Assembly (NCBI GenBank): GCA_023055425.1
Contig: JALGPY010000008.1
Span: 22,355,359-22,419,358, forward strand
Reading direction: 5' to 3'
Length of the DNA: 64,000 bases
From: Linanthus parryae
Taxonomy: Eukaryota; Streptophyta; Magnoliopsida; Ericales; Polemoniaceae
Both the position numbers and the translations under genes were made by a program. Below are positions 21,965-60,774 of the stretch, one piece after another. The notes under the pieces were generated by a model. The model made no database searches. It was not told the origin of the DNA and saw nothing but the letters and a program-made list of their open reading frames with translations. Numbering within the stretch: position 1 is the stretch's first letter; every line of letters begins with the position of its first letter.

Positions 21965-22121
21965 CTCGCAGTGTAGGAAGGAACGATATGGCCATGCCAT
22001 GCCATGCCAATGCCACTATCATAAATGGATTGGGGATAGAGCAAGTCAAAAACACACAAACTCGCAACAATCAAACAGCAGCAAAAAAAGATACATCCAG
22101 CAGAGAAAAAAGAATGAGTAA

Positions 22122-23145: not shown

Positions 23146-24369
23146 TCCCACAAACTTACACTTATCCGATTTCGGCCCGAGTTTGTCTGGCTGTAAACAT
23201 TTTACATAAACATCGCAGTCCCATATCCTTATAAATGACACTGTGGGATGGCTACCACTCCACATCTCATGTGGTTTCTTCATGACTGATTTGGATGGAA
23301 CACGGTTAATGGTGAAAGCTGCACACATTAAAGCATAGCCCCAAAAGGATAACAGAAGATCTGTTTGACACATCATAGATCTCACCATGTCCAACAAGGT
23401 TCGATTCCTCCTTTCGGATACGCCATTCCATTGCGGTGTTCCGGGTGGAGTGAGTTGGGATAATATCCCACACTCTCTAAGATAATCATCAAACTCTTGG
23501 CTCAAGTTCTCACCTCCTCGATTCGATTGTAGAGCTTTGATACTTTTGCCAAGTTGCTTCTCTACTTCATTCTTAAATTCCTTGAATTTCTCAAAAGATT
23601 CGGATTTAGCCTTCATAAGGTATACAAATCCATATCTACTGAAATCATCAGTGAATGTAATGAAGTAGACATAACCACCTCTGGCAGGTGTAGCAAACGA
23701 CCCACATACATCATTATGTATGAGTGCTAATTGCTCACTAGTCCTTTCACTTTTCTTGTTGAAAGGGGACTTTGTCATCTTTCCTAATAAACAAGCCTCA
23801 CATGTCTCATATGATTCAAAATCAAATGAATCTAGAAATCCATCCTTATGGAGTCTAGATACACGTTTCTCATTTATATGGCCTAGACGACAATGCCATA
23901 GATAAGCAGGATTTAAATCATTCATTTTAATCCTTTTAATATTTATGTTATAAATTGGATAGCTTAGATCAAGGACATATAATCCACTAAATAATTGCGC
24001 ACTACAATAGTGAATACTATCAAAATAAATGGAACAACAATTGTTCTTTATTGAAATAGTAAAACCTTTCCTGTCCAAACAAGATACGAAAATAATGTTC
24101 TTACTCATAGCAGGAACATAAAAGCAATTATCTATTTCTAATACTAATCAAGAAGGCAGAGACAGCCTATACACGCCTATAGCAAATGCAGCAACTCTTG
24201 CTCCATTCCCAACGCGCAAGTCCACCTCTCCTTTTGCTAATCTTCTACTTCTACTTAAATCCTGCATATTTCGACAAATATGAGATCCACATCCAGTATC
24301 CAATAACCATGATGAAGAAGTAGTTAAATTAACATCTATAACAAAAATACCTGGTTGTTGTGGGATCAC
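23145..24369 (-). pseudogene. pol: Copia-1 protease-integrase remnant
   Basis: The protease core reads SWLLDTGCGSHICRN (catalytic D-T-G). A stop follows (LSLPS* near 24148), then an open integrase frame 24108-23134. It has the zinc module H-C (LWHCRLGHINEKRVSRL ... CEACLLGKMTKSPF), core residues (IHNDVCGSF; later LTPPGTPQWNGVSERRNRTL with the catalytic Glu) and ends at DKCKFVGY. The equivalent of the first catalytic Asp of the DDE triad reads HND here and HTD in Copia-2. The frame ends in non-homologous sequence at about 23145. Confidence 0.85.
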
Positions 24370-31657: not shown

Positions 31658-33780
31658 TCACGAGGGTGGTCTGGCACATTGTGCCGCTTCCAGCTTAGCT
31701 TTCCTGTGTTGGATTTGAAGAAATGCTTCATGTGCGTGCACCACTGATGGCTTATTTCTTTCCCCGTAATCAGGTGGATCCCCTTGCGACAACTCTGAAA
31801 TTTGGTGCTTCACTTGTACAGCAAATGGCACCCCTAACTGATACTCCCATGAACACTGGGGTGACGGTTTGAAGACCCGAAAAGTCTCCATGTCATCATG
31901 TACCCTCATATCAGTTCTCCATTCTCTACGTTAATGAGATAACGACCAGTCGCCAAGAATGGCCTACCCAGAATTAGCGGAACATCACCTACTGGCATAT
32001 CCAATATAACAAAATCAGCCGGAATGATCAGACTTCCGACCCTCACTAGCACATCTTTAACCATCCCACATGCTTTCTTAGATGATTTTTCTGCAAATTG
32101 GAGTGTGATCCAGGTTTCCGGAGGCTTCCCCACACTTAGCTTTTTGAATACCGATAATGGCATCAAATTCACGCTCGCTCCCAAATCACATAGAGCCCTT
32201 CCAATGTAGGCGTCACCCAGTGTAGCTTCAATGACAAAACTACCCGGATCCTTCTTTTTCTTGGGCAGCCCATGCAAAACACATGAACTAACCTGTTCAT
32301 TTAGGTTCACTCTCTGGAACTCATCCACTGATTTCTTTCCAAGAACTGCATCTTTAATAAACCTTGCATATTTCGGCATCTTTTGAAGTGCCTCAATCAA
32401 GGGGATATTAATATGCAATTTAGAAAATACGTTCAAAAAGCACTTGTATTCCTCAAAATCATCCTTATTCTTCCTAGTACGTAATGGAAATGGTAGTTCT
32501 AAACAAGAAGGAGAAGATGGAAGTGGTACCTCAGTAGATTTCTCTGCATCCTGGTGAATCATGCCCTTTGATTGGGGGATCATGACAGGTTTCTTCTCAG
32601 AATCGAAGACTTCATGTTCCTTTGCCTTTGAGGCTTCCGCTCTGGCATGACTCAGATATGGAGAATCTGTAAGTGAAATACCACTTCGAGTGGTGATGGC
32701 TTGAGCCTGTCCCTCTGATGTGTGAAGAATGCTACCCAGTGCTCTTTGTTCAAGTTGTTCCTTTAGATATTTTATTTCTGCTTGAGCCACTTGAAGTGAA
32801 ATTACTACAGAGCTGACCTGTGTGGACATGTTCGTCATGTGCTGAGCCATTGTCTTTATTATCCCTGTCATCTCGGTCAACTCAGAAGGTGGTACTGGCT
32901 GCTGCTGATGCATCTCTGGACCATTTATATCGTGCACTACCTCCATTGCATTCACTTGAATAGTGTTATAAGCCATCTTTTCATCTCTTACCAGTTCCAT
33001 GTGCCTGTACTGGTAATCCATGTTCTCTTCTTGCTGAACCAAGCATCTCATCAATGCATATGCCCCTTCATGATCACAGTTAAATAAGAAGTTTCCCCCA
33101 CCTTCTATATCCATCTTGTCTCTATTGGGCTGTCCAAGTGAATCATAGAAGACCTGGATTAACTGTGGCTTGTCAATACCATGGTTGGGACATCTACGTA
33201 GCAAATGATTGAAGCGATGCCATGCTTTAACAAGTGATTCATCCTGATTCTGCCTGAACATCCAGATCTCATTCTGAAGCTGAATCACACGTGAGATAGG
33301 ATAGAACTTACTCATGAACCGTGCGACACACTCTTCCCACGTTTTGATTGAACAGGATGGCATAGAGTCCAGCCAATCCATAGCAGCTCCCTTGAGACAA
33401 TGAGGAAAGAGCATCAGTTTGAGCGCTTCAGATGTGACCCCACTATATCGGATTAGCCCACAGTGGCTCTGAAATCTCCCAATGAATGCATGTGGGTCTT
33501 CCTCGTCTGTCCCAGCAAAAATGCACTGATTCTGAGAAAATTGAATTGTTCCCAGCTTGAGACAGAAGGTTTCTGCCTGAATTGGTGGCACCACAACTAC
33601 TGGCTCCCTTCCTTGAAGATCCGCCTCAAATGCGTGGATTATTGCTTTCCCTGAACGATTATATGGCATTGAGGTCGGGTGCGGTCTTGATGTTGCTGCC
33701 AGTGCTTTCTCAACAGCTTCAGCCACCAAAGCTTGTAGCTGCTCAGTGGTGAGGCTAATCTGCCCTTGTCCTTCCGCCAT
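31658..33780 (-). CDS. gag: Gag-protease polyprotein of the non-autonomous gypsy
   Basis: Start ATG 33780 (MAEGQGQISLTTEQLQALVA). Upstream residues in the same frame come from the Tat LTR and leader and are excluded. The main frame is 624 residues to 31906. It contains a gypsy Gag (retrotransposon_gag) domain at about 110-260 (FIGRFQSHCGLIRYSGV, LFPHCLKGAAMDWLDSMP, MSKFYPISRVIQLQNEI, KAWHRFNHLLRRCPNHGI). There is a Gln-rich coiled section near 340-390, no zinc knuckle, and an aspartic protease at about 540-624 (RALCDLGASVNLMPLSVFKK, with D-L-G-A in place of D-S/T-G; PLILGRPFLATGR). A frame change at 31906 leads into MRVHDDMETFRVFK, the protease tail, ending at 31658. There is no RT after it. 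Confidence 0.85.
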
Positions 33781-33832
33781 AGCTACCTGAGAAAACAACA
33801 CTAGAACACCCGTGAGGTAAACAGATACTAAC

Positions 33833-34459
33833 TGTAGATAGTGCTTTCTGAGCTGACAGATCTTGGCCACGTGGCAACCATCCAGCACACCATATTGTGC
33901 TCCACACACACTGGATCACCAGCCAAGCTGATCCATGTGGGGGCTGCGAGACAGAGCCATCGCATACCACTGCACGGGACTTGTAGGGACTTAGTGGTTT
34001 GGAGGCTAGAGTAAGCCCTGTCGCGTGCGAGCCAAGCCCGCACGCGACCTTTAGTAACTGTTTTGAGAGATTTATGGCACGAGCTCCATAAACCCGGTCA
34101 ATCCGGTCAAACCCGGTCAACCTCGTAACGGTTCCGGTATTCGCGCACCACGTGCTGTAACGGTCCCTATATACTCGGACGAACGTGCCGTTATGGTTAA
34201 GCTAATTAAGCCTCCATCAATGGGCGCATTAACCACACTACAACGGTCACGTTCTCTGCTATATATAGGACGTTAACCTTTCCATACAAAGGAGAACACA
34301 CTTGCCATACGCGGAAGCTCTGCCAAACCTCTGTCTCTCTCTCAGACATTACTACTGCCTTACTCTCTCCCTACACACAACCCCACTCTTCCTGTGCGAT
34401 CCTCGATCCTCTACATACGGTGTACACGGAGGTCTCCCCGTCGGAATCGCTTGTGCACA
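33833..34459 (+). repeat. 5' LTR of the Tat element
   Basis: 627 bp. A TATA-like CTATATATAGG at about 34259-34269 lies some 30 bp before CTTTCCATACAAAGGAGAAC, a likely transcription start region; the same sequence is in the 3' LTR. Confidence 0.9.
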
Positions 34460-34499
34460 TTTTGGTGAACCCGACGTGAACTTACCAGCAAAAGCAACC

Positions 34500-37112
34500 A
34501 TGTCTCAGGAGGATGATATCAGCAACAGATCGCCTTCCACCGAAACTGCCTCGGGAGAGGAGACCCGCCGTACTCCTACCACTCCCGGCGAGACACCGAC
34601 GCTAGAGTCTTTGGACGCCACTGTCCAAAGTCAGGCGAAAGTTCTCAAGGCTCAATCTGCGCAATTGGAACGGATCTTAGTCGTTCTGGGCACCCTTGCG
34701 CCAAATCCTTCGTCAGCCACCACTGTCCCTCAAGGAGGAGGAGCCCCTACCGCTCCGGGACTGGGAGTGCCAACCACACCTCCCAACCCTAATCTGCAGA
34801 CTCCACCAACGACTACGCAACTGCCTTCGATTCAGGGGTCAACAGCTCAGATGTTGCCTCTCGCTGCTCACACGCCTCAGCCCTCGGCTTTGGCGTCTAA
34901 CCCAAATCTGCAGTACCCTTTGCCTCCTCCAACGGCGATCTGGGGGAATGCGAGCAGTCAGTATGCTCCCAATCCTTCGACGGCGTATGTGTCGCCCCCG
35001 CCTGCGGCAACCCCTCCGCCAGCTGCCGAAGGAAGCATTCCAGAATGCATGACGTCTCTGCAGAAGCGCATGGACACTATTCTGGCTCATCAGTCGTTGG
35101 CGGATACCATTATCCCGAAGTTAGACAACAACCCACCTATTCCACGAGAGATCTATCTCATGCCTAACCCGGCGGGGTACAAGGCTCCTAAATGGGACAA
35201 GTTCGAGGATGTCAACGGAAACGCTCATGAGCATGTCATGCGTTTCATCGATGTCATGGGGCCGTACGGGGCTGATCCCAAACTGCTGATGCGAGAGTTC
35301 CCGAAATCTCTAGGGAATCTAGCGTACAAATGGTACCGAACATTGGAAGTCGGATCCGTGAAGACTTGGGACGACATGGTCCAGAAGTTCTACACCAAGT
35401 TCTTCCAGATGGAAGAAAAGGTGACGATGATCCATCTCTCGCGGATGTATCAGAAGCGCGAGGAGGACGGGATCACTTTCATCAAGAAATTCAGGGCGAA
35501 ATCCTTGGAGTGAAAAGATCCAATGCTCGAAAGCCGGCTTGTAGAGATATGCCTGCAGTGCATGCGAGATGAATACAAAGGTATGCTCATCAATTTGCAA
35601 ACACCTACGTTTTCAAAGCTAATCGAATGCACGAAGAACATCGAGCCCATAGTCGAGAGGCAGAAGAAGAAGAACGCTCCGGAGCGATCTTCGAGCAGCG
35701 CCACCTACAAGATCGGGAGATTCAGTTACAAGAGGGGACGCAAAGTTGAGGTTAATACGGTTTCACCCCAGAAGCAAGCGAAGGTTGTAAACTTCGACGC
35801 ACCACCCCTACCATGCTCGGTAGAGGAGGCAAGCGACCTCTGCAGGCAGTGGCGTAAGGACGGTGTCCTACCGCCGCTCGAGAAGATACCCTCCAAGGAG
35901 ATGGTAAGGGACCCTAAGTGGTGCGAGTACCACGGCAAGGTCATGCACCCCACGACTGAATGTAAAAAGCTCAGGTTCGCGTTCGACCAGAAAATGAAGA
36001 ACGGCGAGCTGATCGTCAGCGATCACAGGAAGGATGTGCGCAACAACCCACTTCCTGCTCATGCGGAGCAGGGCTCGAAAGGCAAAGAGGTCGCCATGAT
36101 CTCGATCGTTGACTTGGAAGAAGTCGCAGAGGATGGTCTACCCATCGTTGCCGAAGTCCATGAAGACGAAGACTACAGCATGGACACGGAGGATGAACGT
36201 GCCGACCGGATGAAAGGGTCGCATGGCTTCAGCAGATTCTTCGACGAGATGAATTTCTCGGAGAAATGCCGGACAGATATGACGAAAGCGATCTTGAGAA
36301 TAGCGGAGGACTACGAGGAGGATCTTGTAGTATCCAACGGGAAAGTCATCAGGGCGTCCCGCTCTACAGAAAAGATTATGACCTTTTCTGCCAGCGACAA
36401 GAAGACAGATGCGAGCCATCAGAGGCCTCTGTACGTGACAGCTGTCGTCAACGGCGTCGAGTTCAAACGAGCATTCGTCGATGGAGGGGCAGCGGTCAAC
36501 GTCGTTTTGCTCCACACACTGAAGCTAGCAGGGATTCCCGAGCACAAGATCGTCAGGCGTCCTTCTCCATTGATGGGATTCGGAAGCGACTCAAGAATGA
36601 CGATCGGATGGATCCGCCTGGGCGTTCAGATCGGCAGAATCAAGTGCTCAACAAAGTTCTATGTCATAGACGCGAACACCACATATCACATGATCATAGG
36701 TCGAGCCTGGATTCATCGCTTCGACGCAGTTCCTTCAACAGCTCATCAGGTTATGAAAGCTATCTGGAACGACAGGATAGTTGAGATACCGGCTTCGACG
36801 AACCCATTCAACTTGGATGAAGCACACCTTAGCGAGGCAGTATGGTTCACCGAGATGGCGGACGAGCAAACACCAGGACCATTCAACCCTACTCCTTTGC
36901 CTCTCTGGGAGGACATCAAGGACCAGTCACCTGCGGGAGTAATGGTGACAAGGGAAGATGCCAAGGAAAAGCTGCCTACACGCGAAGAGGCGTCGCGTAT
37001 CGCATACCATCTAAAGAATGTGTATACTCTGAAGAGAATCGCAAAGAATGACCCCGAAGGCAAGGAGATAGAGAGCTTCTACGCCAATGGGAAGAAATGC
37101 TATCGCATATGA
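34500..37112 (+). pseudogene. gag: Tat Gag-protease, one in-frame stop
   Basis: ATG 34500 (MSQEDDISNRSPSTET). The longer frame starting in the LTR is rejected. Gag has a Pro/Thr/Ala-rich N-terminal part and a retrotransposon_gag domain (VMRFIDVMGPYGADPKLLM, FPKSLGNLAYKWYRTLEVG, VQKFYTKFFQMEEKVTMI). A TGA at 35511-35513 interrupts it, after which the same frame continues (MLESRLVEICLQCMRDEYKG). The protease lies near 36430-36750 (AFVDGGAAVNVVLLHTLKL, D-G-G in place of D-S/T-G; YHMIIGRAWIHRFDAVPS). The frame stops at TGA 37110-37112, just before the RT frame resumes in register. A single-base change at each stop would explain both. Read-through is possible but not shown. Confidence 0.85.
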
Positions 37113-38520
37113 AGGTGCGCGGGGATGTCCTCACACGGGCATGGGGATATCCCTGGGCAAATCAATCAAATCGAGCAAATTGCGCTGACAGAAAAGCCAA
37201 CACAGGGCGTTCCAGATGAGAAACTCAAGGAAGCACCTGAATGCATGGAAGACAGGCCCAGACCACAAAAGCAAGAACTAAAGGAAGTGTTCCTCAGCCC
37301 GAACGAGGAAAAGAAAATGCCAGTCTTTCTAAGTGCGGACCTCACAAGCGAGGAGGAGCAAGGGCTGCTGCAGCTCCTAACTGAATACAAGGATGTGTTC
37401 GCATGGGAGTATGACGAGATGCCAGGTCTGGATACAAGCATCACCATGCACCGCTTAGACATCATTCCAGGGTCTAAGCCGGTAAAGCAGAGCACAAGGA
37501 GTTTCAGGCCGGAGCTTAACGTGAAAATCAAGCAGGAGATTGTCAAACTCCTGGATGCCAAATTCATAGAGCCGAATCACCATCCCACATGGCTGGCCAA
37601 CATCGTGCCAGTAGTGAAAAAGAACGGACAGCTCCGCATCTGCGTGGACTTCCGAGATCTCAATCGCTTCTGCCCCAAGGATGATTTCCCACTGCCCAAC
37701 ATCGATTTGCTTATTGATTCAACTGCGGGCCACCGCATGTTCAGTTTCATGGATGGTTTCAGCGGATACAACCAGATCAATATGGACCCCGAAGACGCGC
37801 GGAAAACTGCATTCATCACTCCGGTGGGGGTGTTCTACTACACAGTGATGCCGTTCGGTCTCAAAAACGCGGGCGCAACCTATCAGCGAGCCATGATGGC
37901 TCTGTTCCACGACATGATGCATAAAGAAGTGGAATTCTATGTGGATGACCTGGTCGTTAAATCCAAGCACGAAGCAGATCACCTCGCGGATCTACGAAAG
38001 GTGTTCAATAGATGCAGATGCTTTCAGCTAAAGATGAATCCCATGAAATGCGCATTCGGGGTAACATCAGGAAAATTCTTGGGATGTGTGGTTCATCGCC
38101 AAGGGATCGAGCCTGACCCTGCGAAAGTGTCAGCTATCACTGGCATGACGCCACCTCATAACCAGAGTAGCTTGAAAACATTCTTGGGAAAGCTATCATA
38201 TCTGCGAAGATTCATCCCAGCGATTGCAGAAATCACCTGCTGTTTTAGTGCTCTCCTCAAGAAGGACGCCGTGTACAACTGGGCTCCGGAGCACGAAGCC
38301 GCATTCGAAAAGCTGAAGGATTTGTTGACATCCTCATAAATAATGATCGCGCCCCAACTGGGATCACCGCTTCTGCTATATCTGACATCAACAAGGAGAT
38401 CTATAGGAGCGCTCTTGGCTCCGGAGTATGAATGCCAAGAGAGGCCTATCTACTACATCTCATCGTGTAGCCTGCTGAATCAAGGTACACAGACATCGAA
38501 CGTCATTTCCTTGCCTTGTT
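37113..38520 (+). pseudogene. pol: Tat reverse transcriptase with start of RNase H 1
   Basis: RT frame 37125-38339, in register with the protease. Motifs: IVPVVKKNGQLRICVDFRDL, FPLPNIDLLIDSTAGHRMFS, FMDGFSGYNQINMDPEDARK, VMPFGLKNAGATYQRAM, and the catalytic FYVDDLVVKSKHEADH, followed by the thumb and connection (FLGCVVHRQGIEPDPAKV, FLGKLSYLRRFIPAIAEIT). TAA at 38337-38339 interrupts it in the connection. The frame continues into RNase H 1 (RSIGALLAPEYECQERPIYY) and then shifts at about 38490-38520. The catalytic YVDD is intact. Confidence 0.88.
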
Positions 38521-39275
38521 CTTTGTGATTGAAAAGTTGAAACACTATTTCGCATCACACAAAGTAGTAGTGGTCACCAAAAGCGATCCCATACGATATT
38601 TGCTAACTCACACTACTCCTGGCGGGAGATTGGCGAAATGGTACATGACCATCTCTCAATACGATATCACATGCGTGCGACCACGAGCGATCAAGTCGCA
38701 GGCGGTAGCGGATCTGTTGGCACAGTTCCCCGACAACAGCCACGAGCCCGTGATCGAGGAAGAGCTCGAAGGCCCTGAGATCTATGCAATCGATGTGCCC
38801 TATTGGACGCCCCACTTCGACGGCTCGTCAACAAGGAAAGGTGGAGGCATTGGGATAGTCTTGACCAAACCAAATGGGGAGGTCATACAGATGTCCGCAA
38901 AGCTCAACTTCGCAGTCACAAACAATGAAGCGGAATATGAGGCTCTCATCGCAGGGCTCCATGCGGCGAAAGATTTATAAGTAAGCAACCTAACGGTCAT
39001 GGGAGACTCCAAGTTGATCGTTAAGCAAGCCTCGGGCGAGTATGGTTTGAAGGAGATCAACCTTCTGTCTTACCGCACCCTAGTACAAAAGCTGGTGCAG
39101 CAATTCTGCGATGTGAGGTACGAGCACAAGCCCCGAGCAGACAACAGGCATGCGGACGCCCTGGCAACCTTGGGATCTAAGGTCAGCACAGACAAATGTC
39201 CCTCAAGGATCTCCATTGAAGTGCGAACATCGTCGGCATTGACGGAAGATGTGTGCGACGACGAACACATGGATG
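38500..39275 (+). pseudogene. pol: Tat RNase H 1 end and second, archaeal-type RNase H
   Basis: RNase H 1 ends with IEKLKHYFASHKVVVVTKSD and GRLAKWYMTISQYDI. After a linker the second RNase H starts with WTPHFDGSSTRKGGGIGIVL (D-G-S), NNEAEYEALIAGLHAAKDL (catalytic Glu), a TAA at 38978-38980, then VMGDSKLIVKQASGEY (Asp) and HKPRADNRHADALATLGS (final Asp region). All four expected acidic positions look present; the lesion is the stop. A second RNase H after the first is the hallmark of the Tat lineage in plants. Confidence 0.85.
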
Positions 39276-40844
39276 ACACAGATTGGAGAAAAGCAATCCT
39301 ACAAGCTATTGCGGAAGGCACAAGCAGTGAAAGCTGGGCACTCACCAAGGGGTACTGCATACATGATAACACCCTCTATTACAAGGGTCCCGGCGGAATA
39401 CTCATGCGATGTGTCTCCGAGCAAGAGGGACAACTATTGTTAGAAAAGATTCATCAACATGCTTGGAGAAAGCGAGGTGTCAATCTACCGGAAGGCTCAG
39501 AGATATGGAATTCATTGGCCAGACATGTCAACAGCCGCAGCCCTGATACAAGGGAAGTGCGAGAGTTGCGCACTAATCAAAGATTCTTTACTCATCTCTC
39601 TAACTGATGACGACACAGATTGGAGGAAGCCACTCGTTGATTTTCTCACTCAGGGCACCGTGCCTGAATCGAGAAAAGAAGCCGAGAAATTGAAGAGGAA
39701 AGCATCCCGATATGTAGTACAGGAAAACCTGCTTTGGCGAAGAGGACACGAGGGCAACTTGCTGCGATGTCTAGACGGCAGAGAAGCACAAGAAGTTATG
39801 GACCTCTCTCATCAGGTAGAACACCAAGGAGGTGCGAAATTATGCAGGCAGCTCCTCTCAATTGGATATTTCTGGCCCACGATGGAGGTCGATTGCCGCA
39901 CTAAAGTACGACGCTGCCAGCAGTGCCAATTCAAAGGAAACCTAGTGCACGCTCCCGCCGTGGATCTACATGCATTAGGGACGCCATGGCCATTTCACAC
40001 ATGGGCTCTGGACTTCATTGGTCCCATCCGACCAACGTCACACGGGAATCATTTTATTCTCACTGCAACCAAGCTATTCACCAAATGGGTGGAGGCAATA
40101 CCACTGAAGACGGCAAATGCGCTAGCTGTGGTCAACTTCATTCAAGAAAACATCATATGCAGGTTCGGAATCCCAAAAACCATTCTTTCAGATAACGGTA
40201 CTCCCTTTGTTAATCGCCAGGTAGCTGCGAAGTTAGCGGAGTACAATATCAGGCAAATATGTTCTACTCCCTACTACCCGAAGGGGAACGGACAAGCCGA
40301 AGCAACCAACAAAACGCTGTTGTGGATTTTGAGCAAGATGGTCGCAGATGACCACAAGAAGTGGGCTGACTCTCTAAGCATAGCTTTGTGGGCCTACCGA
40401 ACTTCTCCAAGGACACCCACGGGGGACTCGCCGTTCCTACTATGCTATGGGGCCGAAGCCGTGGTACCTGCGGAGGTTAGAGTCAATTCGGCAAGGCTGG
40501 CTTTCCACGCACTCTATGAAAATCAACGTGATCATGACTTAGTCTTGCTGGAGCAAAAGCGAGAACAAGCCAAGAGGACCAACAAGCGGTATCAAGAAAG
40601 AATCGCTCGCGCTTACAATAAGACGGTCCAGCGAAGAGATTTCGCAGTTGGGGACTTGGTCTTGCGCGCATCTGACCACTGCATGCGAGAAGCGACTCAC
40701 CCGAAGTTCGCAGCCAATTGGGAAGGACCCTTCGAAGTCACAGAAGTCTTCGACAGTGGCTACTGCAGCATACGAAGGTTGCACGGCACAACCTCAACCC
40801 CGAGTTCAGTCAACATGCGCTGGATTAAGAAGTACTATCCCTGA
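39276..40844 (+). pseudogene. pol: Tat integrase with duplicated zinc module
   Basis: There are two successive H2C2-type modules. Module 1 begins DDTDWRKAILQAIAEGT (39276 on) and ends with KCESCALIKD (about 39560-39590); a frame change lies inside it near 39465. Module 2 begins DDTDWRKPLVDFLTQGT (39612 on) and ends RRCQQCQFKG (about 39930). The core follows with the DDE triad: WALDFIGP (Asp), TILSDNGTPFVN (Asp), YYPKGNGQAEATNKTL (Glu). The C-terminal part has FAVGDLVLRASDHCMREA and KFAANWEGPFEVTEVFDSG. The frame 39459-40844 is open. It would insert element DNA into the nuclear genome, if the frame change is real it cannot be made in full. Confidence 0.85.
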
Positions 40845-41048
40845 CTTCTCTCATTTCATGCATTTTATAATGACGCTTAATGTCTTGTATGACTACGATT
40901 TACACAATCTCCTCTCCCATATGAGAGGATTGTAATCTCATCTCTCCCATATGAGAGCATTATAATAAGAAAATTCTCCCAAATGAGAAACTTCAAATTC
41001 TGAATGTCAATTTTACTTTATTTTATTTTGCTGAAACTGTTAACAATG
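40845..41048. other. 3' flank of Tat integrase
   Basis: Contains two copies of TCTCCCATATGAGAG (about 40914 and 40945) and a related CTCCCAAATGAGAA near 40977. Each is a small perfect or near-perfect inverted repeat. They may act in RNA 3'-end structure, which is an inference. Confidence 0.4.
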
Positions 41049-41920
41049 GGTTATCCGCTACAATAGCAATTTGCAAATGCGATCTTAATTGATCATCTAA
41101 GCCTATCTGTTACGATAGCAGCCTATGCAAATGCGATCTTAATTGATCATCTAAGCCTATCTGTTACGATAGCAGCCTATGCAAATGCGATCTTAATTGA
41201 TCATCTAAGCCTATCTGTTACGATAACAACCTATGCAAATGCGATCTTAATTGATCATCTAAGCCTATCTGTTACGATAGCAGCCTATGCAAATGCGATC
41301 TTAATTGATCATCTAAGCCTATCTGTTACGATAGCAGCCTATGCAAATGCGATCTTAACTGATCATCTAAGCCTATCTGTTACGATAGCAGCCTATGCAA
41401 ATGCGATCTTAATTGATCATCTAAGCCTATCTGTTACGATAGCAGCCTATGCAAATGCGATCTTAACTGATCATTTAAGCCTATCTGTTACGATAGCAGC
41501 CTATGCAAATGCGATCTTAATTGATCATCTAAGCCTATCTGTTACGATAGCAGCCTATGCAAATGCGATCTTAATTGATCATCTAAGCCTATCTGTTACG
41601 ATAGCAGCAATATGCAAATGCGATCTTAATTGATCATCTAAGCCTATCTGTTACGATAGCAGCCTGTACAAATGCGATCTCAATTGATCATCTAAGCCTA
41701 TCTGTTACGATAGCAGCTTACGCGAATGCGATCTTAATTGATCATCCAAAGCCTATCTGTTACGATAGCAAAAACGATCTTAATTGATCTTCTAAAGCCT
41801 ATCTGCTACGATAGCAATATTCTGCAAAATGATCCTGAGTGATCTACAAAGGTCTATCTGACATGATAGCACTTGAATCCGAAAGCAGATCACAAGCCTA
41901 TCCGTCAAGGTGGCACAGCT
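41049..41920. repeat. 54-bp tandem repeat array between integrase and PMD gene
   Basis: About 14 recognisable units. GCCTATCTGTTACGATAGC starts at 41101, 41155, 41209, 41263, 41317, 41371, 41425, 41479, 41533, 41587, 41642, 41696, 41751 and about 41797, with decayed units on to about 41920 and a partial unit at 41049. The period is exactly 54 bp in the centre. Each unit has two short inverted repeats, CTATC...GATAG and GATC...GATC. Central units are nearly identical and edge units degenerate, the usual pattern of unequal exchange or slippage. Tandem repeats in the 3' region are known from Ogre/Tat elements. Confidence 0.97.
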
Positions 41921-43351
41921 GCGAAAGTACGATCTCGAACGATCTAGTGAATCATCTGCGCATTCATATGACAGATAACAAATGCGACACGTGTATCTAG
42001 CATTATGCCAAGCGAAATATGCCGAAACGCATGCGATGTTGTATTTGTTGTAACAAAACAGCAGATAATACAAAAAGCTAATCATCATTATTAGTCGAAA
42101 GACTTACAATTTATCTGTCTAGATAGCAGCTTACAAGCGAAAAGCTCAAACCTGACTACACAGCCAACATGGCTTACAATACATTCAAAAAAGTAGCTTA
42201 CAAACGAGAAGTAACACATCGAGGGAATCCTAACTAAGAAAGGATGAACCCACCGGTCCTAACACCGGCGATGCAATACGCAAATCTACGGCCAAAGATC
42301 TATAGCAAAAGGGATGCTGCTGCGAAGAGATCAACTCGTCATTCGCTACGTCCCTGGCGGCAAGATCTGGGCAACGGTACGTCCACGACCCCAAGAGGTG
42401 ACAAAGGACTCTGTCTGATCAAGATAGGCACCGGAGGAACCTCCTGTTCTGGCGCGTGCCGCCGTGCAAAACAGGGGAAGCAGTCATTCCTCTGGTGATG
42501 GGTTCCTTGTCATGATTGACAAGGGCATTGACGAGCCTCCTGAGTTCAAGAACGAAGAGGCAAGAAACCCTCCTCCAGGGATGCTGGAGGGGAATTCCGC
42601 CGTTCATTACGAGACGGTAGCACGGTCACTTCGGCGCTGCACCTCACCGGGAGGCGGCCGGAAACATGACCTGCAAACATAATACACGAAGAAAATTCTT
42701 CGAACACACATGAGATATCATTCCCATCTTCTTTATGATGGTTATAAAGAGCAATATTCCTCATAAAGTGGATCTTGGAAACTATTTCTATAGCACAAAG
42801 CGCAAACTCAGGATTCACAACTTGAAGTTGCCATGAATCAACGAAAAACAAGCGTTGAAGCCAGCAGTCGTAAGGACTCACGGCAAAACACATGTTGGGA
42901 TAAAGAACCCAAATGGCAAAGACGGGGTTTATATAGACCCTGTGGAGACTCTTCATTTGCCAAGGATGAGTCAGCAGAATTCGAAAAGAGGGTAAGTTCA
43001 ATCACTTACGCCTTGAAAAGCGGCAACAATCAACTACCCTACTAAAGGCTACGACGATTCAATTGCGTATCCTAATAAATGACGGATGGTCATGATTCGG
43101 ATGGACTTCCCAACGGAAGCGTGCTTATCTGCAGAGAAATTAGCGCGAAAATCAAGCAGAGTATCAATTGCTGATGTAATAATTGGATATGCACAGAGAT
43201 ATCCCATCAAATCCCGGAAAGGGCAAAACGGGCGAATTCATTCTTGTTGTTAAAAAAAAGGGGGAGAAACCCTAGCAACATTACACTAATGTTTCAAACA
43301 TTACATTAATGTTTCAGCTATTTCTTTGCTATTTTTTGAAAATTCAGAAAG
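41921..43351. other. Non-coding spacer between the tandem array and the PMD 3' end
   Basis: No gene was recognised. Near 43275-43315 there is a short direct repeat (CATTACACTAATGTTTCAAA and CATTACATTAATGTTTCAG), within 80 bp downstream of the antisense stop codon, so it could lie in that transcript's 3' UTR. Short open stretches at 42244-43001 overlap in several frames and are not supported. Confidence 0.45.
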
Positions 43352-46300
43352 TCAAAGCAAATTCTTGATCAAGGAGTCTTGGGGCTCGAACTGATGGCTC
43401 AGCTTCTCTACCTGTTCCACTTCTTGCTTCAGTTGCTCGCACCTGGCATTCATCTCATGATAGAGCTTCAGAGCTTCGTCAACCTTTTGCTTTTGCTGCT
43501 CCACCTTCTGCTTCTCAGCTGCGAGATTCTGGTGGCCGAGTTTCAAAGTTACGGCTGCGCGAATCAACGTGACTCTGTTCATAAGAAATTTGAAACCCAG
43601 TCTGCCCTGGACTTTGGTAAGAAGATTTTGGCACATGCCACATAGCAATTCAGCACTCTGGACATAAATGGTCGCAGGCGTAGTCGCAGACAGCTGCTCC
43701 AAAATCCAAATGGCTTCAGTAAGAAACAGCCTCCTGTCGAAGGGCCCTATCTCCAGAGATCTCACAAACGATTGGGGGTAGGTGAGGCGCATCCGAACCA
43801 CCCAGTCTACATCGGTTTGCTTCAAACCTAAAGTGATGTCAAAGCTAAGTTATGATATCAAACTCGCAAGTGAATAACGCGAGGTGCGAACAGTAAAGCT
43901 CTACTTACCAGTTCCTTCCAGAATCTCATGAAGAGAAGGAATGCGCGCTGCCGGGGTGGTCGAAGACTGTCCTCGCTCCATAGCTCTCCTGTCAGCTGCG
44001 AGCTCCAACCTCTCATAGTCAGGAGGAAGAGTGTAGGCCGCACCAGCTGCGACTGCATTCCCAACCTGCGAGCCCCAAAAGCTCCACGCAGGAATAGGTG
44101 CCACTGGCTCAGTCATCGCCGGAGGCGAAGTGACAGCCGAAGTCGCTTGGCGAGGGACGCTCTCCGATGCGAAAGCATTAGCAGCACTTGTCCTTACTTC
44201 CTCAACGCCAGTATGAACATCTTCATCCATTAGCACAGCATCAGCTTCAGCATCATCGGAAAGTTCGATGATGTCCTCGAGAGGCTCACTTGCGTGTTCA
44301 GCAGCTGCGACGGGCTTCTCGGTATGGGAGCTCGGAATCGGAACATAGGACGCAGAAGGCTGACTTCTCTGCTCCAGCACAGGTTCCTCAGCATGGCCTG
44401 CGATATTAAATGCGATAATATGAGGTAACTTGTGCTATAAGTTATTTCGCTATCTTTACTAAAGCTAAGAGTAAGCACCTCCACGCGAAGGTGGGATTGA
44501 GGTATCTTCATCATACACTAAGGACGTGGAACCATGTCCGATTAGTGTCTCCTCACTAAGCAAGTCTTTAAAAGGAGCGTGACCTGGGATGCGAAGAAAC
44601 CAGTCATGATCCTGTCTCAAGTTGCTCAGGTCTAGCACATGCATATCGCTCAAATATTTACCTGAAGGTTCTCCGCACTTGTCTACTAGCCAACGGCGAA
44701 TGTCAGTCTTTGACACACCATGCTTTAATGCACCCGCAATAACATCTCTATAAGTTACTGTGAGATTGAAGATCTCACCTTTATCGCCGCCTGCGATTTC
44801 TTCAAAGTCCGCTTGGACTTGCTCCACGGCTGCTGCATCCTCTTCTAGAACCGCATCCTCCTCCGCCTGGGGAGCCACTTCTTCGGGAAGCTCATCTTCC
44901 TCGCTAGCCGGACGCACTAAGTCGTCAACATGTTGCTCTTCGAGGCTCCGCTGTCTCACACGCTCGAGCTCCTCCTCTTCCCGCTGTCTCCTTCTTTCAG
45001 CAGCCTCCGCGGCTGTCTTCCTGGACTCAGCAAGAACGTCCTCGCTTATGGGATCGTCTGGAATGCCAGAATGGGCATCTCTCTTTTGTCTCTTGGCCAA
45101 AAGGCCCCCGATGATCTCGTCGTCATCATCATCTGTGAAGAAATGATTGGTTTAAGAAAGAAGTGCAAAAGAATCACGATAATGGGAAAGGAAACGCGAC
45201 GGAGGTACCTCCTGATTCTTCCTCATGCATCACAACTGTTCTTTCTTCTTCTTCTTCATCACTCTCTCTGGGCTCCTGCCTCTCTTCTTCTTCCTCTTGG
45301 TTGAATGGAACGAAAGTCTCAACTGCGAGCTCTTTCTGCACTTTGCTGGGCATGCGACCTTTGCCTTTGTCCTTGACAGAAAGGGACTTCACCGAAGGAG
45401 AAGTTGGAGCACTTTTGGGGGAAGAAATCGTAATTCCCTTTTGCCTGGGTCTTTTCACTCTCGGCGCCGCGGTCGCTGGAGGGGACGGATCATCTCCGGG
45501 AGGAGACGAGGCCGGAGCATTGTCTATCAGCGAGTCAGCAAAAGCATTCATGACTGCGCGAATCTTGGTTTCGACCTCAGGGTCCATCCTCCATGCTAGC
45601 TGAAATGACTGCTTCTGTCTTCTGGTGGCAACAATGGTGTTAACCAATGACTTGGAGCGATCGCCAGATGCGAATCTCCGCACATGACACTACAGCAAAC
45701 AGTACAGAATGAAGGTGTCAGCATAAGAAAATCAAGAAGCTTAACGCACGCGAATAAATTGCTTACCTCAGCAAATGCCTTGCTGTATCTGACGACATGC
45801 GTGTCGCCCTTCTTAACTGCGGCGACCTTCTCCTTCAGAATGATGTCAGGACACAAATGGTTCTCACGATCCAACAGTGAGTAGCAACCATATTCAGACT
45901 CGCTCAGGCTACAATTGGGGCGAAACGGAAAAGAATTTCTCTTGATCAAGGGAGCTCTACTAGGCTGCGCGGCCGACTGCGTCTCAATCCTCGTTTGCTG
46001 GGCAACCCAGTACGCGAGCCAGTTCTGGGAACAACCACCCTCGCGGGTTCCCTCAGGCTGCTCAAAGGGAAGATTGTTCATGAAGACTGTCTTGCACTCC
46101 TTTGTTAGCAAGCGCTTATAGCACCCTCTGATAATGGACTGGGGCCAGATTGATGGAGCCACCGCATCAAAACCGAACTGGGGAGAAACTCGAGTGGGGT
46201 CAACATCCACGGTAATCTTTTCATACCTTGGCGCGAGCTCACGAATATGCTCTGCGAGGGCAGGAAGGGAACCCCACAGACACCAGCAAAAGAACTCACG

Positions 46301-47647
46301 ATATCGCTCGTGGAAATGCGATCCCTCTTCGAAGAGCAGCTCTTCTGAGAAGACAACACCCTTAGAGGGATACAACCTTGGAAACCATCGCACATTCTCA
46401 ATGCGTGTGGCATAGGGCCTGGCAGTAAACTCCTTCCGCTTGTCGCATATCAAACTCCAAACGCATTTGGTGTTGCTCGCCCCAAACCACCTCGCAGCCC
46501 TACCGCTGTTACGCTCTTCCGTCTCGCCTGGGGGACACCACTTGTCGAGTTTCAGAGCAGTTGGAGCATAGTATGGCCATCGCTCGAAAACCCACATTGT
46601 CAAAAAGGAAATATTGACAAAAGTCAGTACATCGAGGCGGCCACGCGATTCTTTCATGGCTAGAACCAGCTGATCAAGCCTATAGTACAGCGTGCCCCAG
46701 ACCAAGGGTCCGAGTGCGACTCTCTGGCCAAGGGCGAGCCTCACAGCAAGTGGCAAAACATGGTAGAAGACCCCGTCATGTGGGTGACCATCAATCAGGT
46801 ACCTCGATAACCAAGCACAGAGGAAAGCACAAAGGGTCAAGTGATAGCCTTTACCCTCTACATAATTCTCAGCCTCTGGGTTCTCACTCAGAAGCTTCTT
46901 CGTGATGCTACTGTTCGCATAGTCTCGAAAGAAGTACTGCAACCATTTGTTCCAGGTGTTCTTCGCAGACGTATCAACCAACTGCCAGTTTGGAAGGGCC
47001 TTTGTAGTGGTCCACCGGGTGGAGATTTTCTTTACCTCTGCTAGGCATTCCTCCATCTGCGTGTATAAAGCAATCTCCGCAGATGTCCTCAAAGGACTCA
47101 TAGGGTCCACTTCACCCATGGGGGAAAGATCGTACAGCATTTGCACGTCCTCGAGTGTGGTGGCAGCCTCGAACTCAGCAAAATGGAACGTGTGAGTCGC
47201 AGGTGAGTAACGGGACAGAAGGTCTAGAAGCATGGACTGATCCAGCTTCACGGCAGCACCCTTCATAGCACGAACGGCGAAGTATACGCCGGCATCATCA
47301 AGAGTCGCAGCATGATTGGTCAACACGTGGTCAATCCACTCATCCATATAGTCCAATTTCTGGACGAAAGCCTGGGTAGAAATCGCGGTGTAGGGGAAGT
47401 ACCCGTTTTCGATTCCCAATCGAACCACATCCTCGGATCCAATCAACTCGAGCAAGGCCGAGTTAACTGGGCGAGTCAGTGTCAGCAATCCCTCAACCGG
47501 GACAGGATCAGGCATCCTCTTCGCCTTAACCCTCGCATGGTAGAAATCTTTGCCACCTAAATAGGGGGCTTTTCGCCACAGGGCCTGTGGAAGGTCGGGT
47601 ATCTCTTCATCTTCCTTGACAGGTCTGGTTCCTTTTGTCTTGGCCAT
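43352..47647 (-). CDS. Antisense plant mobile domain (PMD) gene inside the Tat element
   Basis: Five exons predicted on the minus strand: 47647-45767, 45689-45209, 45132-44479, 44397-43909 and 43827-43352. Introns are 77, 76, 81 and 81 bp with GT-AG ends (donors GAG|GTAAGC, GAG|GTACCT, GAG|GTGCTT, CTG|GTAAGT). Phases fit at every junction and the exons sum to 3,981 nt, 1,326 codons without a stop. Exon 1 (residues 1-627) carries an aminotransferase-like/PMD fold signature (RYSPATHTFHFAEFEAATTL, TLEDVQMLYDLSP, FFRDYANSSITKKL, FLCAWLSRYLIDGHPHDGVF, WVFERWPYYAPTAL). Exon 2 is Ser/Pro-rich with acidic runs. Exon 3 has acidic, Arg/Glu-rich helices. Exon 5 ends in a coiled coil (EKQKVEQQKQKVDEALKLY). 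PMDs occur in host genes and in transposons and are linked to silencing control in Arabidopsis MAIN/MAIL1. Antisense extra ORFs are known in some plant gypsy elements. The role here is unknown. Confidence 0.85.
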
Positions 47648-48366
47648 TCCTGCGGAAGAGCAAGAAAAAAGGGGGGGAGAAATACCACACTTCAGTTTGA
47701 ATTTCGAAACTCAAGATCTATGAAAAGAAAGACGAACAGTTTCTGGTATCAATTTCAGAAATCAGGGAGTTGCATTATCAGTGATTTCAAGATCTCACAT
47801 CTGAAGTTCTTATTATTGAAGGATCAAAGCAAAAGTGGGTTCAAAGATCAAAGCTTCTTCACAAGTTTCATGGGCTTATAGATTCAACGCAGTTCAAGGC
47901 AAACACTGGTATCTTAAATCAAAATTGAACAAGGCCAACCTTGTTTTCTTGAAGCCTGCTTGGATATGCACAATTGAAGAACACGATTTGCAGTTCTGAA
48001 CTGGTGATTGATTATCTGAATCTGCTCTCGAAGATCTCCGTGTACCATTCACTTTAAGAGAAAGAAGTGATGCTTTGCAACAATGGAGGATACAAAGTAT
48101 TTATCCAAAACAATGAAGGGTTGTGTCCTTTCGGTAGTCGAATCGCAACCGTCACCATCGAATCGCGCAATCACAGGACAAGCTGACGTCACGCCTAAAA
48201 CCCTAAAGGCCAGACGGCACGACTCTAGGGGTTTTAGGTCATAATGGCACGCATGGGGGCTGAACTTACCCGTATTCGAATTGGTGCGTGGCAATGACGC
48301 GTATGTTGGTTTCCGCGCATGGAAGCCTATGCAGCTATGAGTCTTCACGCGCAGAAAGGGGGCTAA
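47648..48366. other. Upstream region of the antisense PMD gene and Tat polypurine tract
   Basis: This 719-bp stretch lies between the PMD start codon and the 3' LTR. It should hold the PMD promoter unless transcription starts in the LTR on the minus strand. I see no clear TATA box. The last 14 bases (48353-48366, AGAAAGGGGGCTAA) are the plus-strand polypurine tract. Confidence 0.5.
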
Positions 48367-48993
48367 TGTAGATAGTGCTTTCTGAGCTGACAGATCTTGG
48401 CCACGTGGCAACCATCCAGCACACCATATTGTGCTCCACACACACTGGATCACCAGCCGAGCTGATCCATGTGGGGGCTGCGAGACAGAGCCCTCGCATA
48501 CCACTGCACGGGACTTGTAGGGACTTAGTGGTTTGGAGGCTAGAGTAAGCCCTGTCGCGTGCGAGCCAAGCCCGCACGCGACCTTTAGTAACTGTTTTGA
48601 GAGATTTATGGCACGAGCTCCATAAACCCGGTCAATCCGATCAAACCCGGTCAACCTCGTAACGGTTCCTGTATTCGCGCACCACGTGCTGTAACGGTCC
48701 CTATATACTCGGACGAACGTGCCGTTATGGTTAAGCTAATTAAGCCGCCATCAATGGGCGCATTAACCACACTACAACGGTCACGTTCTCTGCTATATAT
48801 AGGACGTTAACCTTTCCATACAAAGGAGAACACACTTGCCATACGCGGAAGCTCTGCCAAACCTCTGTCTCTCTCTCAGACATTACTACTGCCTTACTCT
48901 CTCCCTACACACAACCCCACTCTTCCTGTGCGATCCTCGATCCTCTACATACGGTGTACACGGAGGTCTCCCCGTCGGAATCTCTTGTGCACA
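48367..48993 (+). repeat. 3' LTR of the Tat element
   Basis: 627 bp, about six differences by eye from the 5' LTR (for example GAGCCCTCGCAT against GAGCCATCGCAT, AATCTCTTGTG against AATCGCTTGTG). Followed by the target copy CTAAC. Confidence 0.9.
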
Positions 48994-49056
48994 CTAACAT
49001 AAAGAAAAATAAAATAAAAACTCTAAACTAATTTCTAACTAAACAATCTACCGTTG

Positions 49057-49074
49057 TCCCCGGCAACGGCGCCA
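49057..49074 (-). promoter_or_regulatory. tRNA-Asp primer-binding site of the gag-protease gypsy
   Basis: On the minus strand TGGCGCCGTTGCCGGGGA, 18 bases complementary to the 3' end of plant tRNA-Asp including CCA, six bases after the 5' LTR. It primes minus-strand cDNA synthesis in Athila/Tat-type elements. Confidence 0.9.
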
Positions 49075-49080
49075 AAAACT

Positions 49081-50684
49081 TGACGCGAATTGTTAACGCG
49101 CTTAAACGCAAGTATACGGTCAAGTAGTAAGTGGACTATTTTGCGACTCCGAGTATCGACCCAAAGGAATTAGACGATTATAAGCTAATTAAGAATCAAT
49201 TAAAAGATACCTAAGTAACCGGTAAGAAGTGGGTTGATTATGAAAGTTCGTCGCCCACAAACAAGCGACTTAAAATTAAATAACACCTAAGCTAACTATT
49301 TTTTTATGATTTTAAGTTTAAAAGAAAATAATTGTGTTTGATACGATTATGGAGAAGATATATATAATCTAAGATCCCTAGGGGTGAATATGATTTCCGG
49401 ACTAAGCTTAAGACACACTAGTTATGATTGACTATACCGGGTTACACTCATTACACTCTTCTATCGATCTCATGTAAATTTGTTTTACGGTTAACTTCGG
49501 GTCCTTTCGGTCCACCTACGCTTACCGTTCCACTCTAGTTGGCTTGTTAGGTTCGTTCACCGGGTCCTATCGGTCCACCGCTTTCACTAAAACCTAACCA
49601 ATCCCAACCGAAACAACCAACACTCGGTCACTCAAGTTATTTTCTCCTCTCGGTCTCCAAGAACTACAAGAATGTCAATTGCGTTCTTAACACACCCGTA
49701 TTAGTTCTCTATCGTCAACTAAAGGGTAACTAGCATGCTACGGGTGATCAAACCAAGCACACATATAACTACGACTAAGAACACAATGAATAAATCAAAC
49801 ATAAACATAGAATTAAGCTAGAAGCATGAATCAAGTCAAAATCCGGAAAAATCCTAATCCAAAATCCTAGTTCTCCATAGATTATCTAGCAAATAGAAAT
49901 TTAGCTAGACATAATCTTGTTTAACAAAGTCAAAATATCCATAATCATAGAAGAAAGATGAAGAAGATGATATCAAACGCTAAAATCTTCAAAGATTGAT
50001 GATCTTCGCGTTCCAAGCTTCGTCCCCAATCTTCTCTTGCTCCACGGTGCTCCTCAATGTGCGTCCCCCTCCAAAAGACGTGAATTTCCCCTCTCTTAGG
50101 TATGCTCTGGCGTTTTTTACCAGCTGGACACGATTTTTAATGTAATTTTTCCGAAATTGCACTTCAGCCCCTCCAGTTTGTAATTCCCGGACAGAATTAT
50201 TTGCTGATCTTGTGCGGGCTGTATCTCCTTCATACGGACTCTTCTTCGGGCCTACCATATATCGTTGGAAAGCTACGGATGTCTACTTTCCAACTTCGCA
50301 GGCCTTTCTCCAAAATTGTTTGTATATTTTCCTCAGAGTCGAAAAGAATGAAGGCTGGTCCTGTGTGACTTTTCCAACTTTGCTTCGTTTTTGCGTCTCC
50401 TTTTCTCCTATTCATCTAGCTTCACTCCAAGCATATCAAAGCATCTCATAAGCTCCAATGCACCTATTTTACCTGTGATACACAACACTAAACAACCCGT
50501 GCAAATATCATTGCAAATATGAGAGAAAACATGCACAAATAGGCTAGAACCACAACTTTTCACTCTTAGGCTTGTAAGTCATCAATTCCACATATTAACG
50601 CACATATAACATTTACATCTTGTGAAATAATCCTATTACAAGTAATATGGAAGTATGAAAATAACTCCTAAAAGATAGTTATCA
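49081..50684 (-). repeat. 5' LTR (element orientation) of the gag-protease gypsy
   Basis: 1,604 bp, partner of 26488-28093. Both LTRs contain a conserved-looking 89-codon antisense frame, which is explained by LTR duplication and is not annotated as a gene. Target copy CGTGG follows at 50685. Confidence 0.9.
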
Positions 50685-51033: not shown

Positions 51034-52410
51034 TGTAGGGTTTTGAACATGGAATCGCAGTGGAAGAAGATAACTATTCCGTTCAAATCCCTCCAAGGAC
51101 CACAAGTCAAGAACACATAACGATAGTAAATGATTAATATGTGTTTACCTTTGAGTTCTCCTGTGATGACTTTAAACGCGAATAATGTCACGTTCTCTAC
51201 GGTTGATCCACGCCTAGGATAGATAATTGGACCTCCCAACCTTCTTGTGCTAGATAGAGCAGAGGAAGGAGACAACGGAATCACGCAACGAAGTCACAAG
51301 GAGGGGTCCGGCCTCCTTGTGTGGTCGACGTGTTTGGGGCGGACACGTCTTGCCTTTCTTGCTCTCAACTCTTTTCTCTCCTCTCAATATGTGTTATGAA
51401 TAACATGTCTTGAGAGGGACGGAAGGAGTTCCTTTATATAGTCCAACTACTCCTAGTTGTTTCCATAAAGGGCCCAATACTAATCATATCCATATATGGA
51501 TTAGTATTATTTGCTAACTAGTCCCACTAAGTTAGCAACTTGTTTCAATTTAATTTATCCTTATTAATTAAGTCTCTTGTGCAATTATATCCATATGGTG
51601 TGTGACCCCATAGGTTTCTACTTAATTGGTAGTAACTATTTACAAACATGGAGAGGTGTCTAGCAACACATCCATGCCACCCAATTAATAGAAATAGTCA
51701 TCTTGACAAACCTTTGTGATCTTATTATCGCATCCCTTTGTCTCATTATCCGGATTAGACAAGACATAGAAGTCACACTCGTATATCCAATCCATGTTTC
51801 TCGATCCTGGGAACAGCCCTACCCATGCATATGACATCAATATCCCCATATTGATTCATATGAGTCTGGCCAGGCATTCCATAGGCGCCATCCCTCGAGT
51901 GGCCTCAGATATTTTCTTCCGTTATGTGGGAGGGACAAATCTTATCTAAATCACTCACCATCTCTAATCTTGCTTCCTATTGTGTCCAACATGCGCTTTT
52001 ATGACTACCCAGTTACGGAGTAGTGTTTGACGTTGTCAAAGCACAATATTCCACAACTAGAGGATCTAGTGACTTCAAGTCTAAGGATGATAATATCCTA
52101 TCACCGCGAGAAGCTCTTGTGACTTTACATAACATGTATGTAGCCTTCTCAGATTTGGGTCAATCCGGTATGTCATCTCCTAATACACACCCATGTGTTG
52201 GATCGTGATATCTCCATATCAATCCAACCCCATACTAGTATACAGATGATCCTTCTGTTAATCATTATTTGACTAGGAATATTTAAGATAAACAACACGA
52301 TTTGTAAATCTAAGGACTTCATTATATTAAATATCTCCATAAATAGTACAATGATTATTCTAGCCAATTCATACTAAAATTGAATTGCCTCTAGGGCATC
52401 TATTCCAACA
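51034..52410 (-). repeat. 5' LTR of Copia-1
   Basis: 1,377 bp. On the minus strand it starts TGTTGGAATAGATGCCCTAG and ends AAAACCCTACA. It shares both ends and long internal blocks (for example TGTGTGACCCCATAGGTT, GCGAGAAGCTCTTGTGACTT) with the Copia-2 LTR at 59353-60774. Confidence 0.9.
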
Positions 52411-59352: not shown

Positions 59353-60774
59353 TGTAGGGTTTTGATTCATAGATGCGCAACGGAAACAATAATTAACCAT
59401 GCAAAACCCTCCAAGAATCACAAGTCAAGAGACATAACAATGGTAAAGGAAGAAATCAATAACGCACCTTAGGGTTCTCCGTTGATGACTTCAAACGCGA
59501 ATTGTGTCACGTTCTCTATCGTTGATCCACGCCTAGCGTTGATTTCTAGATCTCCCACTCCTTGGTTCTAGCCCGGAAAGAGGAAGAGGAAGAAGAATCA
59601 CACAAAACAAGACGAACCAAAGGAGGTTCGGCCTCCTTTGGGGCCGACGGGGACGGGCGGCGGGCTAGGGGGCGGCGAGCTCCTCTAGCTTGCTTGCTCT
59701 CTCCTTTTTGTTCTCTTCCACTCAGTTTATGATCTAATGAATCATAAGTGTGGGAAGGAAGGAAGGAAGGTCCTTTATATAGTCCAACAAATCCTTGCCA
59801 ACTACCTAAAGGACTTATTCTAGTCCTACTAGAATTCAATTTAGTCCCTTCCTTGCAAATTAGTCCCTACTAAGTTTTCAAGGTTTTGCAAAGTGATCCT
59901 TCTAATTAATTAATCCAATTAATTAATTCCCAAATCTAGTTCAACTCTATATAGCGTGTAACCCCATAGGTTCAATCTAGTTGGTAGCAACTATTTTCTA
60001 ATATGGAGCAGTTTGTAGCAAAACATCCGTTCTAGCCAACTAATAGAATAGTCATCTTGACAACCTTTGTACAAGTAATTGTCTCATCCCTTTGTCTCTA
60101 TATCCGGATTGGACACAAGACATACAAGTCACACTCGTATATCCAATCCACAGATTCTCGATCCATGGGAATAGCCTTATTTGAGCAAATAACATCAATA
60201 TCCCATATTGATTTATTTGAGTTTGGCCATACATTCTATAAGCACTATCCCTCGACTGGACTAGGATATTTGCTCCCGTTATGTGGGAGGGCCAAATTCT
60301 ATCTAAGTCCACTACGATCTCTAAGCTTGCTTCTTATTGTATCCAGTACACGCCTTTATAACTACCCAGTTACGGTGTAGCGTTTAACGCTACCACAATC
60401 ACAATAATCCACAATTAGAATATCTAGCGACTTCAAGCGTAAGGATGAAAATACCATTGCACCGCGAGAAGCGCTTGTGACTTAACATAACGTGTATGTA
60501 GCCTTCTCGGAGATGGGTCAATCCAGTGCTTCATTACCCCTAATGCACACCTATGTGTTGGATCATGATATCTCCATATCAATCCAACCCCATACTAGTC
60601 TATAGATGATTGTCCCATTGATCATTATACTGGACTAGGGATATTTAAGATAAACAACACAATTGTAAATCTAAGGACTTCATTATATTAAATATCCAAT
60701 AAATAATAAATGAATTTCTAGCCACAAATAAATTCATACTAAACTAGATTGCCTCTAGGGCATCTATTCCAACA
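59353..60774 (-). repeat. 3' LTR of Copia-2
   Basis: 1,422 bp with TGTTGGAATAG...CCTACA ends on the minus strand. It shares blocks with the Copia-1 LTR, with GC-rich differences near 59640-59690. Confidence 0.9.

Follow-up and report, generated by a model that had tools for sequence, protein, structure and literature searches.

The window analysed here, 64,000 nucleotides of Linanthus parryae DNA, contains a single Ty3/gypsy LTR element of 15,161 bp (33833–48993), with a broken gag-pol on its plus strand and an uninterrupted, intron-containing gene on its minus strand. Two LTRs of 627 bp each, both reading TGTAGA...TGCACA on the plus strand, bound the element (5′ LTR, 33833–34459; 3′ LTR, 48367–48993), and a 5 bp target-site duplication, CTAAC, flanks it (33828–33832 and 48994–48998). 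The LTRs differ at six sites, with no indels. Their K2P distance of 0.0096 (0.96%) would place the insertion about 0.4–0.7 million years ago, a range obtained with two assumed rates from six LTR differences. On the plus strand, a likely primer-binding site starting with TGG lies shortly after the 5′ LTR (34463–34481) and a purine-rich stretch that is likely to be the polypurine tract abuts the 3′ LTR (48354–48366), both recognized by eye. The gap between pol and the antisense gene holds a tandem array of a 54 bp unit in 13.9 copies (41072–41816). No Rfam family was found in 33700–49100 and no tRNA gene across the window. Pieces of several LTR retrotransposons are also present in the window.

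The sense gag-pol (34500–40844) comprises gag, protease, RT, RNase H, RVT_3 and integrase. A Pfam scan of six ORFs, five of them sense and the gag ORF left out, returned in order along the sense strand an aspartyl protease (19.3 bits, under the cut-off of 26), RT, RT_RNaseH, an RVT_3 domain interrupted by a stop, and an integrase with H2C2 and rve matches. The assignment of gag relies on its place in the element and on a tblastn match with a neighbouring gag ORF (E = 2.8e-5). The domain order PR–RT–RH–INT (with the protease below its cut-off), the TG...CA ends of the LTRs and the 5 bp duplication are those of a Ty3/gypsy element. According to Neumann et al. (2019; PMC6317226), a second RNase H of archaeal type, located after RH and before INT, is what marks Ogre and Retand within the Tat clade. 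Here, the Pfam scan placed RVT_3 after RT_RNaseH and before H2C2/rve, and RVT_3 is probably this second RNase H. The double RNase H indicates that the element would belong to the Tat clade and be of Ogre or Retand type, which upholds the Tat placement proposed by the earlier sequence-only reading.

Four in-frame stops (35511, 37110, 38337 and 38978) interrupt the gag-pol reading frame, which also changes twice, at about 38.47 and 39.46 kb; these positions were read by eye, with no reference polyprotein as a guide. Since the 37110 stop falls after the protease and before RT, where an ORF may end naturally in some Tat elements, either five or six lesions are to be counted. The sequence-only reading had counted at least six; the broken state of gag-pol stands, while the count is to be read as five or six. 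An intact polyprotein cannot be made from the present copy.

Between the integrase and the 3′ LTR, the minus strand carries a gene of five exons and four GT–AG introns, which join into 1326 codons that are open throughout. Exon 1 (45767–47647, minus strand, as are all the following features of the gene) has 627 codons and bears a plant mobile domain (PMD; residues 127–501). It is followed by intron 1 (45690–45766; 77 bp), by exon 2 (45209–45689), with a basic cluster, KRPRQK, and then an acidic run, and by intron 2 (45133–45208; 76 bp). Exon 3 (44479–45132) is acidic and charged, with the basic clusters KRQKR and RRRQR. Intron 3 (44398–44478; 81 bp), exon 4 (43909–44397) and intron 4 (43828–43908; 81 bp) lead to exon 5 (43352–43827), which contains the stop codon and a C-terminal helix that is perhaps a coiled coil. 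Both the position of the gene in the plus-strand element and its structure, with five minus-strand exons, four GT–AG introns of 76–81 bp and 1326 codons, were recovered as the sequence-only reading had given them. Other combinations of splice sites give open frames too, 36 solutions in all with 1322–1334 codons for the 15 longest, and individual splice sites are thus uncertain. Upstream of the coding sequence, a candidate 5′ UTR intron of 290 bp was recognized by eye on the same strand (47650–47939; AAG/GTTGG...CCGCAG/GAATGG, slashes marking the splice junctions), with a suitable donor at 47939 and a good acceptor that ends 2 bases ahead of the start codon. A candidate antisense promoter (48098–48191, minus strand) was located by motif positions, with TGACGTCA from 48191 and ATAAATA from 48104. 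ATAAATA is frequent in the window (39 matches, both strands), and TGACGTCA is found in the window at two places (four matches, the motif being a palindrome).

The orientation of this gene, opposite to that of the element, raises the question of whether a second PMD-bearing mobile element inserted in reverse, after or shortly before the last jump. A search for repeats of at least 60 bp in 30000–60000 gave three direct families and no inverted pairs, and apart from the LTRs of the element itself no such repeats frame the gene. Moreover, antisense ORFs are reported to be general at this position in Retand elements (Vicient, 2025; PMC11963269). A nested second element is unsupported at the repeat length searched, and we consider it extremely improbable.

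Coding potential of the antisense gene

The openness of the spliced frame was compared with controls by a search for frames with an ATG start and up to four GT–AG introns of 65–100 bp each. The longest frame found has 1330 codons on the strand of the gene, against 391 on the opposite strand, and 40 first-order Markov resamples reached at most 372 codons (mean 269), which leads us to reject a chance spliced frame. Elsewhere in the window, the best of the 48 tile-and-strand scores was 1136 and lay over the sense gag-pol. The search can thus bridge lesions where the sequence is truly coding, and an open frame does not by itself prove introns. The four introns could, in that case, be coding sequence whose lesions had been bridged. 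A codon test was performed with a table trained on gag-pol only, z being computed against base shuffles. It is positive in the named frame of all five exons (z = 4.3–9.2) and negative for their two other frames and for the other strand. For the introns it is negative in all three frames of all four, so that bridged coding sequence is rejected as well. The introns have a T content of 33–43%, compared with 20–25% for the exons. These comparisons confirm the antisense gene as real. Its anatomy, its frame, its domain and its codon fit can be read directly, and from them we infer its transcription and splicing, as well as the nuclear location and function of its product.

An antisense transcript could also act as RNA, by pairing with the genomic RNA and feeding small-RNA control, in which case the protein would be a passenger or a minor product. 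The anatomy lends itself to this, as the sense RNA must traverse the whole antisense gene and convergent transcripts would pair. The idea of double-stranded RNA has been raised in a review of such elements (Vicient & Casacuberta, 2020; PMC7264820), and in tea 175 PHAS loci are reported at PMD genes, out of a total of 476 21-nt and 43 24-nt loci (PMC10673657). On the other hand, a frame of 1326 codons with protein-like codon usage over five exons suggests that the protein has been under selection, if only in the past, and we regard an action mainly as RNA as unlikely.

The predicted protein

Residues 127–501 match the Pfam PMD family (PF10536) with 90.5 bits against a gathering cut-off of 34.9 (E = 1.6e-25; profile positions 5–295 of 347), in agreement with the domain assignment made at first reading. 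PMD is described as an angiosperm-only domain (PMC8616336). Beyond exon 1, the tail of about 700 residues carries basic clusters at residues 706, 801 and 834 as well as long acidic runs. No Pfam family reaches its cut-off there, which is consistent with the earlier remark that the C-terminal extension was not recognized from the host proteins. A weak BORCS6 match near the C-terminus (17.6 bits, under the cut-off of 35) would fit a coiled coil. Transposase_28 (PF04195) is absent from the four Pfam matches obtained up to E = 1.

A single-sequence structure model of exon 1 gave no fold (mean pLDDT 34.9), and a PDB sequence search returned three matches, all at chance level (best E = 0.62). Against a set of 5.8 billion proteins, none of the 7988 candidates scored with the full protein reached E = 0.001 and none of the 7995 candidates for exon 1 reached E = 0.01. 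In IMG/VR, one stretch was pattern-matched by exon 1 and none confirmed, and the RT and integrase stretches had no match; in GTDB contigs, three stretches were pattern-matched by exon 1 and none confirmed. By their description these databases hold mainly prokaryotes, viruses and metagenomes, and are uninformative on the rarity of the gene in plants.

Integrity of the element and selection

It is tempting to take an intact gene in a broken element as proof of selection. Using half the LTR distance and four transition weights, we expect 0.63–0.83 nonsense changes in the antisense gene since insertion, with none observed, and 0.94–1.28 in gag-pol, where four stops are present. The Poisson probability of zero nonsense changes in the antisense gene is 0.43–0.53, before indels. 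With LTRs only 0.96% apart, its intact frame is therefore close to a coin toss, and we reject this argument as proof of selection, an intact frame being expected about half the time. For gag-pol, the probability of at least four nonsense changes is 0.02–0.04 (Poisson), or 0.07–0.14 for at least three should the 37110 stop be a natural one. The confinement of all six lesions to gag-pol has p = 0.05 by length (0.08 for five), which as a sign of selection is suggestive, no more. There is a weak hint that part of the gag-pol damage is older than the last jump, the age being drawn from six LTR differences.

A frame that is intact next to a broken gag-pol would also be seen if the element were dead and this single copy were in use as a host gene. 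The insertion, however, is young, which leaves little time for such an exaptation, and intactness by itself is expected at near even odds. We therefore hold exaptation to be very unlikely. That the gene is kept because it is useful to the element is plausible.

Origin and possible role of the gene

Accessory genes of this kind are known (PMC5418596; PMC6317226; PMC11963269), in line with the sequence-only reading, which had pointed to extra ORFs, some of them antisense and some PMD-like, in plant Ty3/gypsy elements. PMD is reported as the most frequent non-canonical domain in the consensus sequences of plant LTR retrotransposons from ten species (PMC9289625), and Neumann et al. (2019; PMC6317226) give the share of Ogre elements that carry it as 57%. 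The clades PMD-A1 and PMD-A2 are described as exclusively Gypsy-encoded across angiosperms (Ikeda et al., 2017; PMC5418596). Antisense coding regions ahead of the 3′ LTR are reported for every Retand cluster with recent activity (Vicient, 2025; PMC11963269), and gene23 of the maize element Grande is described as having a promoter of its own and a product that is nuclear, in a review that also urges looking at spliced antisense transcripts (Vicient & Casacuberta, 2020; PMC7264820). An antisense PMD passenger is thus of a known kind, to which the complete spliced gene model, long tail included, adds a good new case. In the literature searched, which left most subscription papers outside, we noticed no description of an antisense PMD gene with several exons in an element of the Tat clade. 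Two surveys scored unspliced ORFs, with thresholds of at least 600 bp (PMC11963269) and at least 250 codons (PMC6317226), and in such surveys a gene with introns of 76–81 bp would be scored as several ORFs or partly lost.

The sequence-only reading had also considered a captured host gene. A recent capture of a host PMD gene (PMD-B or PMD-C, the latter including MAIN and MAIL1) would have taken place as genomic DNA, introns included, and the introns indicate that the gene did not enter as a spliced (processed) sense cDNA. Host PMD-C is reported to have been captured twice by MULE DNA transposons (PMC5418596). However, the Gypsy-encoded PMDs are reported to form clades of their own across angiosperms (PMD-A1 and PMD-A2; PMC5418596), which makes a recent event less likely, the gene sits where Retand elements usually have their accessory genes (PMC11963269), and its codon usage fits that of the gag-pol of the element, a weak hint of long residence. 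Taken as a recent event, host capture seems to us quite unlikely.

The explanation that we favour, and judge to be moderately probable, is that of a young Tat-clade copy (Ogre/Retand type) with its own Gypsy-type PMD accessory gene, the product of which would most likely be a nuclear helper. The genomic RNA of the element would be of the opposite strand, where the splice sites of the introns are reversed and would go unrecognized. Because of this reversal, the introns would survive each reverse transcription, a stability through retrotransposition that the anatomy suggests. A PMD followed by an acidic, basic and perhaps coiled-coil tail would suit a helper acting on chromatin, transcription or silencing. 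The broken copy could still supply this helper, or be copied by the enzymes of a relative.

MAIN and MAIL1 are host PMD-C proteins that silence transposons, together with PP7L (PMC7156037; PMC5418596). A counter-silencing role for the PMD of elements has been published as a suggestion (PMC8616336), and counter-silencing has also been suggested for MULE elements (PMC5418596). Among the functions that the proposed helper may have, we favour countering or redirecting host silencing of the MAIN/MAIL1 type, though at clearly less than even odds. We give little credence to a bolder scheme, in which the PMD protein would be a decoy of the MAIN/MAIL1–PP7L module that protects in trans, copies whose gag-pol is dead while their antisense gene lives would be kept as helpers, and the multiple antisense ORFs counted in a Tat element would often be exons of one spliced gene. 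The present copy, as a full gene model, offers a starting point for the question of whether elements turn their PMD proteins against the MAIN/MAIL1 host pathway.

Comparison with known systems

The protein shares its PMD with MAIN and MAIL1 (PMC7156037; PMC5418596), but differs from these host genes in being encoded by an element and in carrying about 700 extra residues for which no Pfam family passes its cut-off. With gene23 of Grande it has in common the situation of an antisense accessory gene between pol and the 3′ LTR; the promoter and the nuclear product are reported for gene23 (PMC7264820), whereas for the present gene they are predicted, and the passages used mention no PMD for gene23. 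The antisense position between pol and the 3′ LTR, the length of this region and the tandem array are also shared with the Retand elements that bear TRP28 (PF04195) ORFs, yet the gene described here encodes a PMD instead of TRP28, and the ORFs of that survey are unspliced and of at least 600 bp (PMC11963269). Like the PMD-A1 and PMD-A2 genes, the antisense gene is encoded within a Gypsy element, a resemblance that concerns its location (PMC5418596). Finally, the element resembles the Ogre elements with PMD in its probable Tat-clade placement, in the additional RNase H that follows RH and precedes INT and in its PMD-bearing extra gene (PMC6317226), and it differs from them in its short LTRs (627 bp), in the antisense orientation of the gene and in its five exons.

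Insertion site and internal features of the Tat element

The edge of the 5′ LTR (33833-34459, plus strand) of the Tat element, a Ty3/gypsy LTR retrotransposon, is overlapped by a minus-strand ORF of 669 residues from another element (31906-33915; Retrotrans_gag, E = 2.7e-21), and the Tat insertion therefore directly adjoins that gag. Elsewhere, the window contains a plus-strand piece of a host-type gene with a SURNod19 domain (15255-16112; E = 4.1e-106), a plus-strand agglutinin-domain ORF (22118-23209; E = 2.2e-13), the end of which is overlapped by an opposite-strand ORF with gag_pre-integrs and rve domains, and a 92 bp direct repeat (51147-51238 and 59466-59557; 82% identical, spacing 8.3 kb).

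Within the Tat element, the stretch that precedes the integrase core is present in two copies (39272-39457 and 39609-39815), which share 33% identity over 69 aligned residues; they might form two zinc-finger-like modules in tandem. The antisense gene, a five-exon minus-strand PMD gene, is followed by a minus-strand ORF of 151 residues (42546-43001), for which a Pfam scan gave no match. A TATA-like TCTATATAAACC is located at about 42930, and the two together perhaps represent a second antisense transcript.

Finally, a tandem array of a 54 bp unit (13.9 copies, 94% matches) occupies positions 41072-41816, in the interval that separates pol from the antisense gene. Arrays of this kind are described for roughly half of the Retand elements with recent activity (PMC11963269).
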